DNA from: a virus
DNA length: 52,482 nucleotides
Virus record (IMG/VR): IMGVR_UViG_3300006790_000022
Coordinates: 1-52,482 of that record
Reading direction: 5' to 3' (one strand)
The notes beneath the pieces are model-generated. The model worked only from the letters and a program-made list of their open reading frames with translations, had not been told where the DNA came from and made no database searches. Each line of letters opens with the position of its first letter. The stretch's first letter is position 1. Made by a program: the position numbers and the translations under genes. This document shows, in pieces, positions 3,729-15,371 of this stretch.

Positions 3729-3811
3729 AGCTTCGTGCCGTAAAGACGAATGGAAGAGTACCTTGCCTTAGAAGCAAGAGGTTTGTGGGTTCGAATCCCA
3801 CCGAAGCTACA
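3729..3811 (+). tRNA. tRNA-Leu (anticodon TAG), abnormal D-arm and short variable arm
   Basis: The acceptor AGCTTCG/CGAAGCT, anticodon stem CTTGC/GCAAG and T-stem GTGGG/CCCAC are all perfect. The anticodon loop CTTAGAA gives TAG (Leu, CUA). Two points are irregular. The variable region is only about six bases, although bacterial tRNA-Leu is class II with a long arm. The segment between acceptor and anticodon stem is about 24 bases and forms no canonical four-pair D-stem, only a weak GTGC/GTAC pairing with a small internal CGT/ACG hairpin. It is probably functional given the perfect stems, but the identity rests on the anticodon alone. Confidence 0.65.
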
Positions 3812-3871
3812 ATGTTCAATAAAAGTCCCTGTTCACTGTACGTGAATGGTAATGAAACAAATATAATCTAT

Positions 3872-3954
3872 GGCCGGGTGGCGGAACAGGTAGACGCGAC
3901 GGACTTAAAATCCGTTGTCCCTAGAACGTGCGGGTTCGATTCCCGCCCCGGCTA
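3872..3954 (+). tRNA. tRNA-Leu (anticodon TAA)
   Basis: This is a regular class II leucine tRNA. The acceptor is GGCCGGG/CCCGGCT and the D-arm is GCGGAACAGGTAGACGC. The anticodon stem ACGGA/TCCGT holds loop CTTAAAA (anticodon TAA, UUA codons). There is a long variable arm, and the T-arm is GCGGG/CCCGC. UUA is clearly the dominant leucine codon in this window, so this tRNA matches phage demand. Confidence 0.95.
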
Positions 3955-3960
3955 CAAAAC

Positions 3961-4017
3961 TTGTTATTTATATCTGGTTAGTCACTTATAACCTTACTAA
4001 TCGGATATAAATAACAA
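3961..4017. repeat. 22-bp inverted repeat (long hairpin) within the tRNA array
   Basis: Bases 3961-3974 are the exact reverse complement of 4004-4017. The pairing continues inward through one T-G pair and GGTTAGT/ACTAATC (one G-U) to a 13-base loop (3983-3995). The stem is AT-rich with no following T-tract, so it does not look like a terminator. It sits between tRNA-Leu(TAA) and tRNA-Trp, where it could be an RNase cleavage site, an insertion scar or a protein-binding palindrome. Confidence 0.9.
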
Positions 4018-4097: not shown

Positions 4098-4168
4098 GCA
4101 CCTGTGGCCGAGTGGCTAGGCAGGGGTCTGCAAAACCTCAGACGTAGGTTCGAATCCTACCAGGTGCT
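4098..4168 (+). tRNA. tRNA-Cys (anticodon GCA)
   Basis: The acceptor GCACCTG/CAGGTGC is perfect. The D-arm is GCCGAGTGGCTAGGC-like. The anticodon stem GGGGT/ACCTC holds loop CTGCAAA (anticodon GCA). The T-arm GTAGG/CCTAC is perfect. The discriminator is T, as expected for cysteine. CCA is not encoded. Confidence 0.92.
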
Positions 4169-4174
4169 CTATAT

Positions 4175-4247
4175 TGCCTTGTAGTTTAATTGGATAAAAC
4201 AGTGGGTTACGGCCCCGCAGATCTGGGTTCGAGTCCTAGCGGGGTAA
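4175..4247 (+). tRNA. tRNA-Arg (anticodon ACG)
   Basis: The acceptor TGCCTTG pairs with CGGGGTA using G-U pairs. The anticodon stem GTGGG/CCCGC holds loop TTACGGC, giving anticodon ACG (CGN codons after A34 editing). The T-arm CTGGG-TTCGAGT-CCTAG is intact. It is the last gene of the array. The following 100 bases hold short palindromic bits (CATATC-AC-GATATG at about 4257) and an AT-rich leader for the gene at 4352. Confidence 0.88.
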
Positions 4248-4351
4248 CAATATTCCATATCACGATATGCAATACGCGAATCGCGAATCCCATTGACCTT
4301 ATTAAAAACTTTCTTATATTAAAGTAATATAAATTTTAATGTTAATAAGTT

Positions 4352-4593: not shown

Positions 4594-5196
4594 ATGATAT
4601 CGTTTACACTACTTGGTGGTAAACTAGCTATTGATCCTAAATTAGCTATGATTGAGGAATTTACTAATATCCTTGAATACGCTAGTAAAAAGAACAAAGA
4701 AGAGCTAGGCATGCGTATGTTATTATACGTATTTTATTGTTGTGATCTTACAAACAGCAATCCTATGAAAGATGTAGACTACCGCGAAAAACCTAGACAA
4801 GCCATGGTCAGAGCTCTAGGTCCTATCAATAAAACATCATTCACTAATAAAGAACAGAGTCTTATAGATGCTGCTATGGACGCATACAACTACTTTAATG
4901 AGGATGCGTTAGAAAGATCTGCTATGGTACAACAAAAGAAAATTGATGAAATCAGTGCTTTATTAAATAAAACAGAACCCTTTATAGAGATTGTTCATGA
5001 TGAAGACGGTCAACTAGATAAGGTTGTTACTAATGAGAGAGCTATTGCTGGATTTGTAAAACAATTAGAAGTACTAGCAGTTGGTATGTTAAAAGCCAAG
5101 GAAACAGCTAAGAAAGTAGAAAATGTTGGTAGAGTTAGAGGAGATAAGGGAAGTTCTATGATAGAACGTGGCGTGTTTAGGGATGATGAAGAGTAA
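4594..5196 (+). CDS. Candidate small terminase or packaging accessory protein
   Basis: This 200-residue, mostly helical and charged protein overlaps the large terminase gene by one base (TAATG). Hydrophobic helices lie at about 10-60, and a long charged helix at about 100-170 precedes a basic, Gly/Ser-containing tail. Position directly before the large terminase, size and helical content fit a small terminase subunit. No helix-turn-helix is obvious and I know of no clear small terminase in crAss-like phages. Treat the function as positional inference. Confidence 0.55.
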   Translation: MISFTLLGGKLAIDPKLAMIEEFTNILEYASKKNKEELGMRMLLYVFYCCDLTNSNPMKDVDYREKPRQAMVRALGPINKTSFTNKEQSLIDAAMDAYNYFNEDALERSAMVQQKKIDEISALLNKTEPFIEIVHDEDGQLDKVVTNERAIAGFVKQLEVLAVGMLKAKETAKKVENVGRVRGDKGSSMIERGVFRDDEE

Positions 5197-7520
5197 TGAC
5201 AACTAGAGAATTACATAAACCAAAACCGGTAAAGTTTATTGATATTAATAAACTTCCAAGAGCTGCGTTTGAAAATGACTATGATAAGTTTGATTTAGAT
5301 TTCTTAGTTAAGAAAGATGGAAAAATCATGAATGGTGAGTTTGATGTTACTGATGTACCAGATAAATTATATGGTTGTCCAACAGGTAATGAAGAAATTA
5401 ATTTAAAAGATTACTTAGTATATAGACCTGTACCTAAAGAACTAATACAATGGAGAGACTTACCAGCTTATCATCCGGATTCTTTAGATATGGAGAATTG
5501 GTATCGAGATCTTATAGAATATTGTAAACATGGTGTTTGGGTTGATGGTGAGTATTGGAATCCTTATATGGTTTACTGGTTAAATGTTTTTGTATTCCCA
5601 GTCCCAAAATATGATGAAGACGGAAACTTAGTTCCTGATTTTGACCCAGGTCATCCTTTTTATTGTAATATCGATAGATATATACTTGATATAGCTTGGA
5701 AGGCAAGACTTACAAAACAAGATGTATCTTTAATGGGAGGTCGTGGTATAGGTAAATCATACCTATGGGGCTCGATTATGGATAGAGAATATAGATTATT
5801 CCCTAACTCTTGGACTGTAGTATCTTCTACAAATGATGAAACAACTTCCGAGGCTTGGAATAAGGTTGAGGAATGTTTAACAGCTATTGAAAAGTTACAT
5901 AGAGCTCTTAAACATAAACGTATTACCGACTCGCTAACAATGAAATATTCTGGAGAGGTGGTAGAATTACCAGATGGTACAACAGAAGATAGAGGGTATC
6001 TAGCTAAAATGGAAAAAATTACTTATGGTAAAAACGCCGGTAAGACAAGGGGTAAGCGTCCTACTATACAGTTAATAGAGGAGTTTGCTGCGTTCCCACC
6101 TACAGGACAAAAAGGAGATCTTAAATCATGCATGAGAGAATCTAGAGGATCTTGGTATGTAATGGGTGGTATGAAGAAATGTACAGTTTTATATTCTGGG
6201 ACTGGAGGTACTGTAGAAAATGATCAAGCAGAAGGGATATTTATGGATCCTATTGCTAGTGAATGTATACCAACATGGGATTGGGAAGAAGCTGGCGATA
6301 AAGGTTGTGGAATATTTATCCCAACACATATAAAACGTTCTGGTACTTGGGAAGATAGTGGATGCCCAGATGTAGCTTTAGGTAGAATGGAAACGGAAGA
6401 AGAGAGAGCCAAGAAGAAATCAGACCCAATTGCATACATGGGGCTTCTACAAGAATTCCCTATGACTATTAAAGAGGTATTCTTACGTACAGGAGTAAAT
6501 ATCTTTGATCAGGATAAGATAGCCACACAAAGGACCACAATTGACTTTGGTAAAGATAATATACCAAAACCTGGTAGAGGTTTCCTTAAATGGAAACAAG
6601 CTGAGAATGGTAAAATTATTGGGGTAGAATGGGATCCAGCACCAACTACTGGTGATATAGAAATACTAGAGCATCCACACTGGTTGCAGGATATAACAGA
6701 TTTACCTGACGACGAGAAACAACCAATGAAAGATTTATATGTATCCGGTTGTGATAGTATTGATCAAGGTAATATTGATTCATCTTACGCAACAGATAAT
6801 AAAAAAGGTTCTGAACTTTGTATGATGGTTAAAAAACGTGTTGTGGATAAAGGGTACTTTAAATACACATCAAATATTTATGTTGCTAAATATAATAAAC
6901 GTTCTGACGATGTTAGGGATGATTGGGGTAATGCACTTAAGCTGGCCATATACTATAACTCTCAAGTAAATATAGAGTATACTAAAATTGGTATTGTTGG
7001 TTATTTTAGAGATATGGGGTTTTATCACTTACTAAAGAAGAGACCATCTATTGCTTTACAAGGGGGAGACCCTAAGAAGAGCTCTAATTTAATAGGTACT
7101 CAGGTAAGTTCTTATCTTATTGATCATATGGACGGTAAAATTAAATCATATATTGATGATAGTTATGATAAAATATGGTTTCCGGATTTACTAGCTCAAC
7201 TACAAGATTATGATAGAGATAATCGTACTAAGTATGATATGGTAATAGCTATGGGGTTATGTGAATTATCAGATGAAGATTTAATGGGTAAGGTAGCTAA
7301 ACCACCAGTAAGAGAAACTCAACAATTACAATCTTTTGGTTATTGGACAGAAAAGTTACCAGACGGTCGTAGAATTAAAAGGTACGGAGTAATTCCCGAG
7401 AAAAAAGGTCAAGGAGGAAATGAGATGGAGCAATTCTTAGAAGCTGAAAAATTTAAAAAACATGGTGGGGTAAGATGGATAGATATGACCGATCCTGATG
7501 ACCCAAAGCCAATGTATTAA
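5196..7520 (+). CDS. terL: Terminase large subunit
   Basis: This 774-residue protein is the ATPase-nuclease that pumps DNA into proheads. The Walker A motif is GGRGIGKS (181-188) and Walker B is IQLIEE (291-296), with the catalytic Glu doublet. A C-terminal RNase H-like nuclease region starts near GCDSIDQGN, about residue 526, where the first Asp of the metal site is expected. Asp residues in a late segment (...YDMVIAMGLCEL) fit the last acidic cluster. The roughly 170-residue N-terminal extension before the P-loop and the overall length match large terminases of crAss-like and related Bacteroidota phages. It is followed after 58 bases by the tandem-GroES gene and then by the portal. Confidence 0.95.
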   Translation: MTTRELHKPKPVKFIDINKLPRAAFENDYDKFDLDFLVKKDGKIMNGEFDVTDVPDKLYGCPTGNEEINLKDYLVYRPVPKELIQWRDLPAYHPDSLDMENWYRDLIEYCKHGVWVDGEYWNPYMVYWLNVFVFPVPKYDEDGNLVPDFDPGHPFYCNIDRYILDIAWKARLTKQDVSLMGGRGIGKSYLWGSIMDREYRLFPNSWTVVSSTNDETTSEAWNKVEECLTAIEKLHRALKHKRITDSLTMKYSGEVVELPDGTTEDRGYLAKMEKITYGKNAGKTRGKRPTIQLIEEFAAFPPTGQKGDLKSCMRESRGSWYVMGGMKKCTVLYSGTGGTVENDQAEGIFMDPIASECIPTWDWEEAGDKGCGIFIPTHIKRSGTWEDSGCPDVALGRMETEEERAKKKSDPIAYMGLLQEFPMTIKEVFLRTGVNIFDQDKIATQRTTIDFGKDNIPKPGRGFLKWKQAENGKIIGVEWDPAPTTGDIEILEHPHWLQDITDLPDDEKQPMKDLYVSGCDSIDQGNIDSSYATDNKKGSELCMMVKKRVVDKGYFKYTSNIYVAKYNKRSDDVRDDWGNALKLAIYYNSQVNIEYTKIGIVGYFRDMGFYHLLKKRPSIALQGGDPKKSSNLIGTQVSSYLIDHMDGKIKSYIDDSYDKIWFPDLLAQLQDYDRDNRTKYDMVIAMGLCELSDEDLMGKVAKPPVRETQQLQSFGYWTEKLPDGRRIKRYGVIPEKKGQGGNEMEQFLEAEKFKKHGGVRWIDMTDPDDPKPMY

Positions 7521-7578: not shown

Positions 7579-8166
7579 ATGGAAGTAAATGATGTAAAAC
7601 CAGAAAATCAACATGTTCTGGTAGAAGTTGAAAAACTAGAAGAAGTATCTGAAGGTTTATACGTAGGAAATCAAAATGCTGTCGAGACAGATGCACATCC
7701 AACAGAGTTTTATATAGGTAAAATTCATAAGTTTGGACCTAAAGCAAAAGATAAGGATCAGTGTCCTAGTATAGAAGAAGGTAAGTATGCAATATTTTCA
7801 CAGTGGTCAGGCCACGCACTAGCAACCAAAGGTGTTTATACGAAAATAATTCCAGCATATAATATAGTAGCAATTTCAGATAGTTTAGAGATGACAAAAG
7901 AAGAACTTAAACCTACTAATGATAGAATTTTAGTAGAACTTATAGAAGATCAAAAAGTAGAAGACGAAGTATATATAGGAGATCACAATGACCCGAGAGA
8001 GGCTGTAACACAAAAGGGAAAGGTTATTAAATGTGGTATAAACTCTACCGGTTATTCGGAAGGTACTGTAGTTTTCTTTGAACCTCATGCAGGTAATTTA
8101 ATTGTAAATAAACCTGGTGAGCAGATAAAAACATTAAACAGTAGAGATATACTGTGCACATTATAA
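7579..8166 (+). CDS. Tandem GroES-like co-chaperonin
   Basis: This 195-residue protein reads as two GroES folds in series. The second (about 107-195) is clear: KPTNDRILVEL, a mobile-loop region with a hydrophobic triplet (VYI), QKGKVIKCG, GTVVFFEPHAG and a closing strand ending SRDILCTL. The first (about 6-100) repeats the plan in divergent form: KPENQHVLVEV, triplet LYV, GKIHKFG, KYAIFSQWSGHA and YNIVAIS. Double GroES proteins are known for plastid Cpn20, and phages such as T4 (gp31) encode a single-domain GroES substitute for capsid folding. Location between terminase and portal and upstream of the capsid gene supports a capsid-folding role with host GroEL. Whether it assembles as a ring is unknown. 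Confidence 0.85.
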   Translation: MEVNDVKPENQHVLVEVEKLEEVSEGLYVGNQNAVETDAHPTEFYIGKIHKFGPKAKDKDQCPSIEEGKYAIFSQWSGHALATKGVYTKIIPAYNIVAISDSLEMTKEELKPTNDRILVELIEDQKVEDEVYIGDHNDPREAVTQKGKVIKCGINSTGYSEGTVVFFEPHAGNLIVNKPGEQIKTLNSRDILCTL

Positions 8167-8178
8167 TAGCTAGTATCA

Positions 8179-10545
8179 ATGCCATATGTAACTAATAAAA
8201 ATATAGAAGATGTATATACTACAGAAAAGGAAAAGAATACCTTTGAGTATCTACACAAGTGTATAGACTTCAGTATTGCTCAATTAGTTTACGAGAGAGA
8301 TCATATTAGAAGAGCCAGAAACCTTTACGAAGGTATTAGGGATGATGATGAATTTCGTTATTTACAAGAGACTTTCGGAATTGAAACCCCGTTAGCGCTT
8401 AAAATGACCCCTCTTGTAAAAACAAGGATTGATGTATTACTTGGAATTTTATTAGATGAAACATTTACATATAGGGTAACTGTTAATGATTCTGTATCCC
8501 TAGAAAACATAGAGACACAGAAAACAGAGGAGAGAGTAAAACGTGTTAGAGCAAAGTACCAAGAGCAGTTAAGTAGGAATAAAACAAATCTCCAGAAAGG
8601 GATGCCTATAGAGGATAATATGGTTAGCCAAAGATATTTGGAATCCATTGACTCTTTGATAAATGAATCCTTTATATCTTCCTTCGAAATAGCTGCTCAA
8701 TCATTAATTAAATTCTTTTCACAAGACCCAACTATAGACTTAAAGCAGAAGGTTAAATTATTCTTTTTAGACCTTTTAGTTACTGGGGAAGCTTACTATA
8801 AAACATCAGTACCTCAGATAGGTGCTGACCCTGTTTTAGAGATAGTTAAACCAGAAAATATATTCTTTAGTAAGAATACTAACCATCAATTTATGTCTAC
8901 AGGAAATAATCCTAATGTAGACACTGTTGTTCAGAGAGAGTATATGAAGAGGGAAGAGATCTTAAATAGATGGGGGCATTTACTAAGTAAACAGGATAAA
9001 GAAGACTTATTTGGTAAAGCACCTGGTAGAGGTACTGGACATACAAATATAGTAAGATCTACAAGAGAAATCGAGTATGCCAATAGAAGTATTGATGGAA
9101 CTATAGGTAAAACTAATCAATACACTAGAAGAGGAACTGATTATATACCGGTATATTTTGTTGAGTGGTTAGCTAGTAATGAGGTTGACATTGATGACGA
9201 GACACAAGACGACTTACAAGTTGTAAATGAAAGTAAAGTATCAACAGAGGAGTATAGAGAATTTTATGGAGCAGATGCTGGGGCTAGTAAGGTAAAAAAG
9301 AAAGCTTATAGACTTGATAAATATCAAGGAATTAGAATTGGTTATAATATTTACCTGGAATGTGGTAAGAGTAGAAATACCGTAAGAAGTATAGGTACCC
9401 CGTGGAAAACTAAATTATCTTATAATGGTGTAGGGTATAATGAAAGAAATGGAGAACCATATTCATTAGCATGGTCTTTAAAGGATTTACAAGACTCTTT
9501 TGATATTGTAATGTTCTTTAGAGATAACTTAATAGCTAACTCTGGTGTTGATGGGTCACGTATTAACCTAGCAGCTATACCAAAAGTACTTGGTAATGAT
9601 TTTATGGAGCGGTTATTAAAATTTATCGCACTAAGAAAGCAAGGCGTTGAAATAATAGACCCTACAGAAGATGGGGCAAATTTATTCCAACATTACGGAG
9701 ATTTTAAAGGTTCGGTAGATGGTAATGTTATAGCCTCATTAAATGCGGTACTTGAGACTATACAAGCTCAAGCAGATGTTGTATCTGGTATAAATAGACA
9801 TATGTATCAAGCCGCTGAGGTTAGAGATGCGGTTAGTAATGTTAAAGTTGGTCAACAACAAACATCTTTAATCACGAAAGATTTATTTGAATTAGTTCAT
9901 ACGGCTAGGAGATATATGCTTATTGACTTAATTAATAGAGCAAGATACTCCTATATAAAAGGTAAGCGAGGTTCTTATATTGTTGGTCATAGATCAATTT
10001 TATTTGATGTCCAAGCTAAAGACTTTTGTTTTACAGATTTCAATATACAAGTTGTTAATTCTAGTAGGGAGAACGCTAAGTTAGAGAAGTTATCAGCTGC
10101 TGTACCAGAGTTAATTGCAGCTGGTGTTATAGATCCAGAAATTTTAATCGAAATGATTATGTCTGATTCTACTACAAATATCCTACAACTAGTACAAACT
10201 AGTATAAGGAAACGTAGGGAGGAGAACGATATGGTTGGTCAGTTAGAGGGTCAGGTAGAGCAAATGAGTAATGATAGCCAAGAACAAGCTAAATTAATAG
10301 ATCAGTTACAAAAAGAGATTGATAAAAAATCTCAAGAGGATGTAGACCTAAAAAATAGAGAGTTAGCTCTTAAAGCTAAAAATGATCAAGATAAGATTGA
10401 TCTTGGTAAAGAAGAGATAGAACGTAAAATTAAGAAAGATGCCGCAGATATTGAAAAAGATAGGGAGATTGTACAATTAGAAAGAGAACAACTATATGCT
10501 GAGAACACTGCCGGTAATGCGAGAGAAATTAGAAATAATATATAA
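8179..10545 (+). CDS. Portal protein
   Basis: This 788-residue protein occupies the portal position after the terminase. It is alpha/beta in the body, with a crown- or stem-like region. The last 100 residues (about 690-788) form a strongly charged Glu/Lys/Gln coiled coil, with repeated heptad-like segments such as LIDQLQKEIDKK and IEKDREIVQLEREQ. A long C-terminal helix of this kind is usual for portal barrels of podoviruses, and the length suits crAss-like portals. The central part contains DLQDSFDIVMFFRDNLIANSG and a conserved-looking Gln-rich helix (LETIQAQADVVSGINRHMYQ), typical of portal wing-stem regions. It overlaps the next gene by one base (TAATG). Identity rests on position and architecture. 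Confidence 0.82.
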   Translation: MPYVTNKNIEDVYTTEKEKNTFEYLHKCIDFSIAQLVYERDHIRRARNLYEGIRDDDEFRYLQETFGIETPLALKMTPLVKTRIDVLLGILLDETFTYRVTVNDSVSLENIETQKTEERVKRVRAKYQEQLSRNKTNLQKGMPIEDNMVSQRYLESIDSLINESFISSFEIAAQSLIKFFSQDPTIDLKQKVKLFFLDLLVTGEAYYKTSVPQIGADPVLEIVKPENIFFSKNTNHQFMSTGNNPNVDTVVQREYMKREEILNRWGHLLSKQDKEDLFGKAPGRGTGHTNIVRSTREIEYANRSIDGTIGKTNQYTRRGTDYIPVYFVEWLASNEVDIDDETQDDLQVVNESKVSTEEYREFYGADAGASKVKKKAYRLDKYQGIRIGYNIYLECGKSRNTVRSIGTPWKTKLSYNGVGYNERNGEPYSLAWSLKDLQDSFDIVMFFRDNLIANSGVDGSRINLAAIPKVLGNDFMERLLKFIALRKQGVEIIDPTEDGANLFQHYGDFKGSVDGNVIASLNAVLETIQAQADVVSGINRHMYQAAEVRDAVSNVKVGQQQTSLITKDLFELVHTARRYMLIDLINRARYSYIKGKRGSYIVGHRSILFDVQAKDFCFTDFNIQVVNSSRENAKLEKLSAAVPELIAAGVIDPEILIEMIMSDSTTNILQLVQTSIRKRREENDMVGQLEGQVEQMSNDSQEQAKLIDQLQKEIDKKSQEDVDLKNRELALKAKNDQDKIDLGKEEIERKIKKDAADIEKDREIVQLEREQLYAENTAGNAREIRNNI

Positions 10546-13958: not shown

Positions 13959-15371
13959 ATGAAAATTGTAGACAGAAATACTATCCCTCAGAATATGAGC
14001 GATACGAAAACTATCCAACATTTTGGTACTCTTTTAGGAGAAAAGCCTCACAAATTGGGTACTGTGGTTACAATGTACCCACACTTAGCAATCAGTACTT
14101 TGACTGATGCATTAAAAAATGTTTATTACAATCCTAAGAAATCAGAAGGGTCTTTTAGCCCTGTGAACTCAATGTGTATTGAGTGGGATATCAACGTTAA
14201 CTTTATTAAGAAAGTTAAGATTGTTGGTGCTATCTCGGGAGACGGTTCTCAAGAGCAAGTTGAGACTATCATCTTGGAGGAAAGATATTATGACAAAAAT
14301 GATACTTTCACATTAGAGAACAAGCAACAATTATTTGTTACTGCAGTTCCTAAGAAAATCTCACAAAAGAAATATGAGTACAGAGTAAGATTGGTGACTA
14401 ATGATCCAACCAAGACTATTAACACTGCTTACGCTGCTGCTGGTTTCACTACTAGATACAGAAGTAACTACTTCCCAGAGTTATCTGAGAGAGGATACAC
14501 TAAATTTGTAAGTAACACTGAAAAGCACAGAAATTACATTTCTCGTCATAGAGCTTCTGTAGACTGGTCATCTGACTATGCTAGACAAGAAGATATCTAT
14601 ATCCAAACTGCTAAAGGTAAGGATGATTCAGCTTACTACAAAATGAATAAAAAAGAGAAAGATTGTTTAGATCACTTCTTGAACTCAAGAGACCAAGCAT
14701 GTGTTTGGGGTGAGACTAACTACGATGTGAACGGTAAATGTCGTTTGCAAGATGACCACGGTCGTGACATCCCTATGGGAGATGGTGTAGTAGCTCAAAT
14801 CGAGAGATACTGTGATAAATTCTCTTACTCTATTTTAACTGCTGACATTTTAGATGACGTTATCACTTCAATGGTTGAAAAATCAGATAACCCAACTGGA
14901 AATGTTTATGCTGTTATCTGTAACGAAAGATTATGGAGAGCATTTGGTAAATTGATGAAAGATGACTTGAGATTTATTTCTCCATCTGATGGATCTTACT
15001 TCTACTCTAAAGCTAAAGGTAAAGAGGTTGAAGTTGGAGCTACTTTCAAATCTTACCATGTACAAGGTAATACAATTACTTTTATGCCAGATAGATCTTT
15101 AGGTCAAGAATATCCTGATCATGGATACGGTATCTTCTTAGATACAGGTGTTGACTTAAACTCTGGAAGACCTAATATCGCTATGTTTACGTTAAAAGGG
15201 TCAGAAATGATTTCTGGAAACTTAAACGGTATGGGTGGACAAGACGGTATGACTTCTGGAGAAGTTTCTACAGGAGTTGCTGGTTCTCAGTACCACTTGT
15301 TAGGGTTCGCTGGTACAGTTGTATTCAACCCTTACAAATCTTTCATCTTGGAAGAGTCAGTAATTGTGTAA
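13959..15371 (+). CDS. Major capsid protein (putative)
   Basis: This 470-residue protein lies downstream of portal and scaffold. It has its own promoter (13866), structured leader and terminator (15394). Its codon choice is the most biased in the window (AAC, TTC, ATC, GGA/GGT, TTG), as expected for the most abundant protein. Length fits HK97-fold capsid proteins of crAss-like phages (about 490). The sequence shows an extended N-terminal arm, a beta-rich E-loop-like region (about 70-140) and a mixed alpha/beta core (e.g. GNVYAVICNERLWRAFGKLM, about 315-335). A Gly-rich C-terminal segment ends in VVFNPYKSFILEESVIV. There is no GG tag and no obvious cleaved propeptide. No sequence motif is diagnostic, so the call combines context and expression signals. 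Confidence 0.85.
   Translation: MKIVDRNTIPQNMSDTKTIQHFGTLLGEKPHKLGTVVTMYPHLAISTLTDALKNVYYNPKKSEGSFSPVNSMCIEWDINVNFIKKVKIVGAISGDGSQEQVETIILEERYYDKNDTFTLENKQQLFVTAVPKKISQKKYEYRVRLVTNDPTKTINTAYAAAGFTTRYRSNYFPELSERGYTKFVSNTEKHRNYISRHRASVDWSSDYARQEDIYIQTAKGKDDSAYYKMNKKEKDCLDHFLNSRDQACVWGETNYDVNGKCRLQDDHGRDIPMGDGVVAQIERYCDKFSYSILTADILDDVITSMVEKSDNPTGNVYAVICNERLWRAFGKLMKDDLRFISPSDGSYFYSKAKGKEVEVGATFKSYHVQGNTITFMPDRSLGQEYPDHGYGIFLDTGVDLNSGRPNIAMFTLKGSEMISGNLNGMGGQDGMTSGEVSTGVAGSQYHLLGFAGTVVFNPYKSFILEESVIV

Follow-up and report, generated by a model that had tools for sequence, protein, structure and literature searches.

A gene for two fused Cpn10/GroES units between the terminase and portal genes of a crAss-like phage, and its probable role as a tandem co-chaperonin

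Plastid and apicoplast Cpn20 proteins carry two Cpn10 domains head to tail in a chain of about 200 aa. In apicomplexan Cpn20, the mobile loop and the roof are kept in both domains (PMC3542282). Plasmodium Cpn20 serves as the sole co-chaperonin, acts as a homo-oligomer and replaces GroES in E. coli (PMC3542282), while the Cpn20 assemblies reported so far comprise homo-tetramers, trimers and 3+1 hetero-rings, the ring of three Cpn20 and one Cpn10 being documented in Arabidopsis (PMC3542282, PMC5780408). The literature searched, with most subscription journals outside its reach, describes tandem co-chaperonins only for plastids, algae and apicoplasts, and none for phages. Among phage co-chaperonins, the single-domain gp31 of T4 works with GroEL in the folding of gp23, and its larger, more open cage is credited to the lack of roof loops and to an extended mobile loop (PMC6318259). 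In the crAss-like phages, gp15 of crAss001 and the 'putative chaperonin' of cr114_1 are GroES-like genes of one domain, located upstream of the gene of the large terminase subunit (TerL).

The window analysed here is a whole record of 52,482 bases that represents a partial genome of a crAss-like phage. The assignment is based on TerL, the portal protein and a Crass_capsid major capsid protein (MCP) as neighbours, which provide the Crassvirales markers phrog_6681, phrog_6547 and PF23898, respectively. TerL (5196..7520; phrog_6681, E 2.1e-44), the portal gene (8179..10545; phrog_6547, E 6e-43) and the gene of the 470-aa (~52 kDa) MCP (13959..15371; Pfam Crass_capsid PF23898, 69.5 bits with a cut-off of 27) are all on the plus strand. 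The matches of TerL in the annotated phage collection are largely crAss-like phages, and a contig of 80,990 bases (L001/G001) is identical to the record over the genes compared. Directly before TerL, a clade-conserved plus-strand gene (4594..5196) encodes 200 aa with a weak match only to phrog_15746; a counterpart precedes TerL in nearly all clade loci extending that far, and its position suggests that the product may be the small terminase subunit. Four tRNA genes were found at 60-134 (Arg, tct), 3872-3955 (Leu, taa), 4098-4169 (Cys, gca) and 4175-4248 (Arg, acg); three of these form a cluster that precedes the terminase genes. The open reading frame (ORF) listed at 3785-3991 shares sequence with the Leu tRNA gene and probably does not represent a gene itself.

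Between TerL and the portal gene, a plus-strand ORF at 7579-8166 (ATG at 7579, stop codon at 8164-8166) encodes a 195-aa protein of two fused Cpn10/GroES units, as identified by Pfam, PHROG, six-frame, AF2, Foldseek and PDB profile analyses. Pfam Cpn10 (PF00166) matches the whole protein in two stretches (48.5 bits, E 9.2e-13), and after splitting at the linker, half 1 and half 2 score 26.2 and 28.1 bits, each above the curated cut-off of 21.1 bits. When all six frames of the window were searched, the only Cpn10 matches were these two halves (25.1 and 27 bits). The first domain covers residues 6-99 (7594..7875, plus strand) and the second residues 110-194 (7906..8160, plus strand), and the protein is assigned to PHROG 3188, 'co-chaperonin GroES'. 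A scan for promoters and terminators around the gene gave results at chance level.

The AF2 model computed from 25 family members consists of two GroES barrels (pLDDT 82, pTM 0.78), and an earlier model from 12 members reached a pLDDT of 80.5. Values below 50 occur only at the two mobile-loop positions, that is residues 22-40 and 126-132 with 25 members, and 22-39 and 125-137 with 12. Chlamydomonas Cpn20, one of the few tandem entries in the PDB, is the best match there by both fold and sequence: Foldseek placed Cpn20 and Cpn23 (7ekq chains R and Q) on top with full-length TM values of 0.70 and 0.63, the Cpn20 superposition having a deviation of 4.5 A, followed by single Cpn10/GroES proteins and T4 gp31, and the sequence-profile search ranked 7ekq_R first (E 6.6e-9). 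The full-length superposition of the monomer model suggests that the two domains may be placed like neighbouring ring subunits, as in Cpn20. An earlier note on this DNA had read 7579-8166 as two divergent GroES-like halves resembling Cpn20, encoded between the terminase and portal genes. Its coordinates proved exact, and the two halves, the Cpn20-like architecture and the location, which is conserved in the packaging/head cluster of the clade, are all supported; the first half, for which structure prediction had been proposed as the check, adopts the GroES fold in both models and passes the Pfam cut-off by itself.

The predicted mobile loop 1 (residues 22-39; 7642..7695, plus strand; pLDDT below 50 in both models) contains LYV (residues 27-29) at 7657-7665, and the predicted mobile loop 2 (residues 125-137, or 126-132 in the second model; 7951..7989, plus strand) contains VYI (residues 131-133) at 7969-7977. 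The hydrophobic triplet that the earlier note saw in each half is therefore present twice in this copy, but the retention of both triplets is ruled out as a family feature, since in 20 of 25 relatives the loop 2 triplet closes with Asp or Asn at its third position. Judged from the alignment, VYI is a peculiarity of this phage, an exception within its family. The first two triplet positions of both loops are conserved (25/25 and 22-23/25 sequences); the loop 1 triplet begins with V, I or L in all 25 members, mostly continues with Tyr or Phe, and has a hydrophobic third residue in 18 of 25 relatives. Binding strength is probably split unequally between the halves, because loop 1 is usually of the hydrophobic GroEL-binding type, whereas the usual end residue of loop 2 is Asp or Asn. 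The deep member L050 shows the reverse, with a good loop 2 (GLII) and a degenerate loop 1. Relative to GroES, the stretch between the conserved Pro and Gly is extended by 3-6 residues in loop 1 and by 1-3 in loop 2. With 13-15 residues in half 1 and 9-10 in half 2, as against 18 in GroES, the roof segments are short, and they lack strands in both AF2 models (DSSP), so that neither half has a GroES-type roof hairpin. The hairpin is a variable, non-essential feature of co-chaperonins, as the accepted co-chaperonin gp31 also lacks a roof (PMC6318259).

The phage protein thus shares with Cpn20 the head-to-tail arrangement, the chain length and an even domain count against the seven-fold GroEL. It differs in being only 20% identical, in lacking both an N-terminal extension for a transit peptide and the roof hairpins, and in a second loop that usually ends in Asp or Asn; moreover, no single-domain partner was found in the clade records. 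In contrast to the apicomplexan proteins, it does not keep mobile loop and roof in both domains: its roofs are short, and most relatives have a degenerate loop 2. With T4 gp31 and the other single-domain phage co-chaperonins of PHROG 3188, it has in common a phage-encoded co-chaperonin fold, a short or absent roof and a longer mobile loop, and the loop motif GLYVG of the crAss-like protein resembles GLIIG of gp31. However, gp31 has one domain instead of two per chain, the site between TerL and portal is particular to the crAss-like protein, and sequence similarity is undetectable, the half profiles scoring gp31 below zero bits. The likeness to gp31 is one of design (short roofs, long first loop) and not of detectable sequence.

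The GroES-like genes of crAss001 and cr114_1 occur in the same phage order and also lie in the stretch ahead of the packaging genes, but they encode a single domain, precede TerL and score 17.7-18.4 bits with Cpn10, below the cut-off. A single-domain GroES-like ORF upstream of TerL was also found in the human-gut contig MT835470. In the Azobacteroides phage ProJPt-Bp1 (L022), the gene right after TerL was considered as a possible tandem and ruled out for want of a Cpn10 match; the whole 99.5-kb record of this phage gave none, so that a recognisable GroES is not present in all crAss-like phages. Outside this order, Foldseek against the BFVD viral models aligned gp96 of Cellulophaga phage phi18:3 (Pachyviridae; S0A356, 'chaperonin cpn10') over its full length with the tandem protein. 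This 200-aa protein, annotated as GroES and encoded one gene upstream of TerL (L051:41458-42060), is apparently a tandem, as read from the structural alignment; its second half exceeds the Cpn10 cut-off, whereas its first half is not recognised by Pfam. It is present in four Cellulophaga phages. Since tandem-like proteins occur in these cultured phages as well, the tandem form, which had been set apart from the usual single-domain phage co-chaperonins, is not unique to the clade. No usable match was obtained by hhalign of the clade alignment against phi18:3 gp96 alone, so a separate origin is possible. Unlike the clade records, phi18:3 also encodes a separate 84-aa single-domain GroES, gp80 (L051:31108-31362), and thereby pairs the two forms whose combination gives seven-domain rings in plastids. 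A 187-aa 'hypothetical protein' of MW202828 (L062:4896-5459, UOF82516), encoded two genes upstream of TerL, weakly resembles gp96 and may be a tandem GroES. Tandem-like phage co-chaperonins are thus present in databases under plain GroES names.

Loci were gathered from many samples by scans with TerL, the portal protein and the tandem protein. About 30 environmental relatives carry the tandem GroES between TerL and portal, and the order TerL, ~195-aa tandem GroES, portal was seen in every fetched clade locus having both TerL and portal. The set compared consisted of 25 distinct close members and two deep ones (L050 and L019); L056, an L050-like member found later, is included in the 25-row alignment (A2). 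Some loci showed further peculiarities. An extra 548-aa ORF lies between TerL and the tandem gene in L017 and L033 (L017:5682-7328), ~4.5 kb without a long ORF separate the tandem gene from the portal gene in L019 (L019:3467-8009), and the 1129-aa TerL frame of L046 (L046:2465-5854) is interrupted in frame after query residue ~190 by an insertion that may be an intein. By tblastn, the tandem proteins of this phage, L050 and L019 had no match in the annotated phage collection; scanning of genome contigs of bacteria and archaea revealed no relative of the tandem protein.

The dN/dS ratios over the 25 closest pairs listed range from 0.09 to 0.31, mostly 0.1-0.2, and by this measure the tandem gene is under purifying selection. 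In a tree of the halves, all first halves split from all second halves (support 96/90), so that the tandem form and the divergence of its halves predate the radiation of the clade. Profiles of each half scored the other half at 27.6 and 17.2 bits, above the crAss-like single-domain GroES proteins, and E. coli GroES at 14.7 and 13.6 bits; hhalign of half 1 against half 2 gave an E value of 1.8e-11. On these comparisons, and with the root of the tree not fixed, the tandem likely originated by internal duplication, the alternative being fusion of two different GroES genes.

A possible partner is encoded by one relative, G003 (the contig of L025), which has the same gene order. Its 523-aa group I GroEL (L053:4211-5782, minus strand) shares 31% identity with E. 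coli GroEL, retains the ATPase residues (D52, D87-GTTT) and finds its best PDB match in a reconstructed Fibrobacteres-Chlorobi-Bacteroidetes ancestor, which fits a Bacteroidota host. The surrounding genes are presumably of replication type (ligase-like and primase-like, names read from sequence). The window and two ~81-kb relatives show no GroEL; this was not taken for a real absence, because the replication genes flanking GroEL in G003 are missing from these contigs too. Aligned to E. coli GroEL with Met as residue 1, the G003 protein has Lys in place of Leu234 and Val264, two GroES-contact positions, and Leu in place of Arg268, and loop 2 of the tandem GroES of the same phage reads IYD. A charge pairing between these Lys positions and the IYD loop would be a tempting idea, drawn from one sequence. 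A further reading would be a lid alternating two functionally different GroES subunits, with hydrophobic half-1 loops and Asp-ended half-2 loops, in some members matched to a dedicated phage GroEL with Lys at L234/V264, so that the pair would be partly insulated from the host; we regard this as speculative and improbable.

Considering the above, we think it likely, with good though incomplete confidence, that the protein is a phage co-chaperonin, forming a tandem GroES lid ring on a group I GroEL and closing the cage while phage head proteins fold. Several tandem copies would form the lid on a GroEL that would normally be that of the Bacteroidota host and, in one relative, possibly the phage's own. 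The gene may be expressed together with the head genes, and the enclosed proteins may be the capsid protein and perhaps the portal; location beside the head genes is a circumstantial pointer to clients, among which the 470-aa MCP seems the likeliest. Tandem units give an even domain number, and the lid would consist of three chains that leave one GroEL site unoccupied, four chains with a surplus domain, or three chains joined by a single-domain GroES of the host. The points counted for the co-chaperonin reading are the tandem fold, the Cpn20 match, the flexible loops, the fixed gene order, the dN/dS values, GroES in other crAss-like phages and Pachyviridae, and the GroEL of G003. Those counted against it are the degenerate loop 2 of most relatives, as a result of which half the domains may bind GroEL weakly, the degenerate loop 1 of L050, and the partial genome.

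The last form of the lid is derived directly from the plastid precedent: the phage protein would never act alone, and three tandem chains and one single-domain GroES of host or phage would complete a Cpn20/Cpn10-like seven-domain lid. This would solve the even-number problem in the way known from Arabidopsis (PMC3542282, PMC5780408), and phi18:3 does encode both the tandem-like gp96 and the single-domain gp80. However, neither the window nor any of the clade records, the largest of which has 81 kb, yielded a single-domain GroES, so the partner would have to come from the host or from regions not covered by the sequences, and Plasmodium Cpn20 is active as a homo-oligomer (PMC3542282); we consider this form possible but rather doubtful. 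Alternatively, the tandem GroES might no longer fold proteins and instead have a structural or assembly role in the head or the packaging motor, either as a virion part or as an assembly factor of portal or terminase. The fixed place exactly between TerL and portal, the one degenerate loop of most relatives and the absence of roof hairpins speak for this. Yet both loops are flexible with conserved first two triplet positions, the active co-chaperonin gp31 is also short-roofed (PMC6318259), one relative encodes a GroEL, and the 200-aa Cellulophaga protein has no MS/MS note whereas neighbouring structural proteins have one. A structural role is accordingly quite unlikely.

The degenerate loop could be taken differently, as producing a poorly releasing or incomplete lid, by which the protein would act as a decoy, tying up the GroEL of the host and stopping host protein folding instead of promoting that of the phage. 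The gene, however, lies among head genes and not among small early genes, its whole fold is strongly conserved, and the documented precedent is that of phages with capsid-folding co-chaperonins (PMC6318259), all of which makes a decoy very unlikely. Finally, the best structural match, 7ekq, is a ClpP-bound co-chaperonin complex, and binding and inhibition of ClpP by Chlamydomonas Cpn11/20/23 are reported (PMC8889267 and its reference 48). A phage protein that caps host ClpP and blocks degradation, as this complex does with chloroplast ClpP, is nevertheless very improbable, since 7ekq, as a solved tandem co-chaperonin, would rank top regardless, and both the position among the head genes and the GroEL encoded by the relative point to folding.

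Under the preferred reading, a co-chaperonin lid on GroEL, the clade represents a conserved phage family of tandem GroES, a form that the literature searched describes only in plastids, algae and apicoplasts. In those systems, the fit of an even number of GroES domains to the seven-fold GroEL is still debated, and this family, together with the Cellulophaga phages that have tandem-like and single-domain forms side by side, offers an independent and experimentally easy case. For the phages themselves, the finding suggests that crAss-like phages rely on a dedicated lid for the folding of their head proteins.
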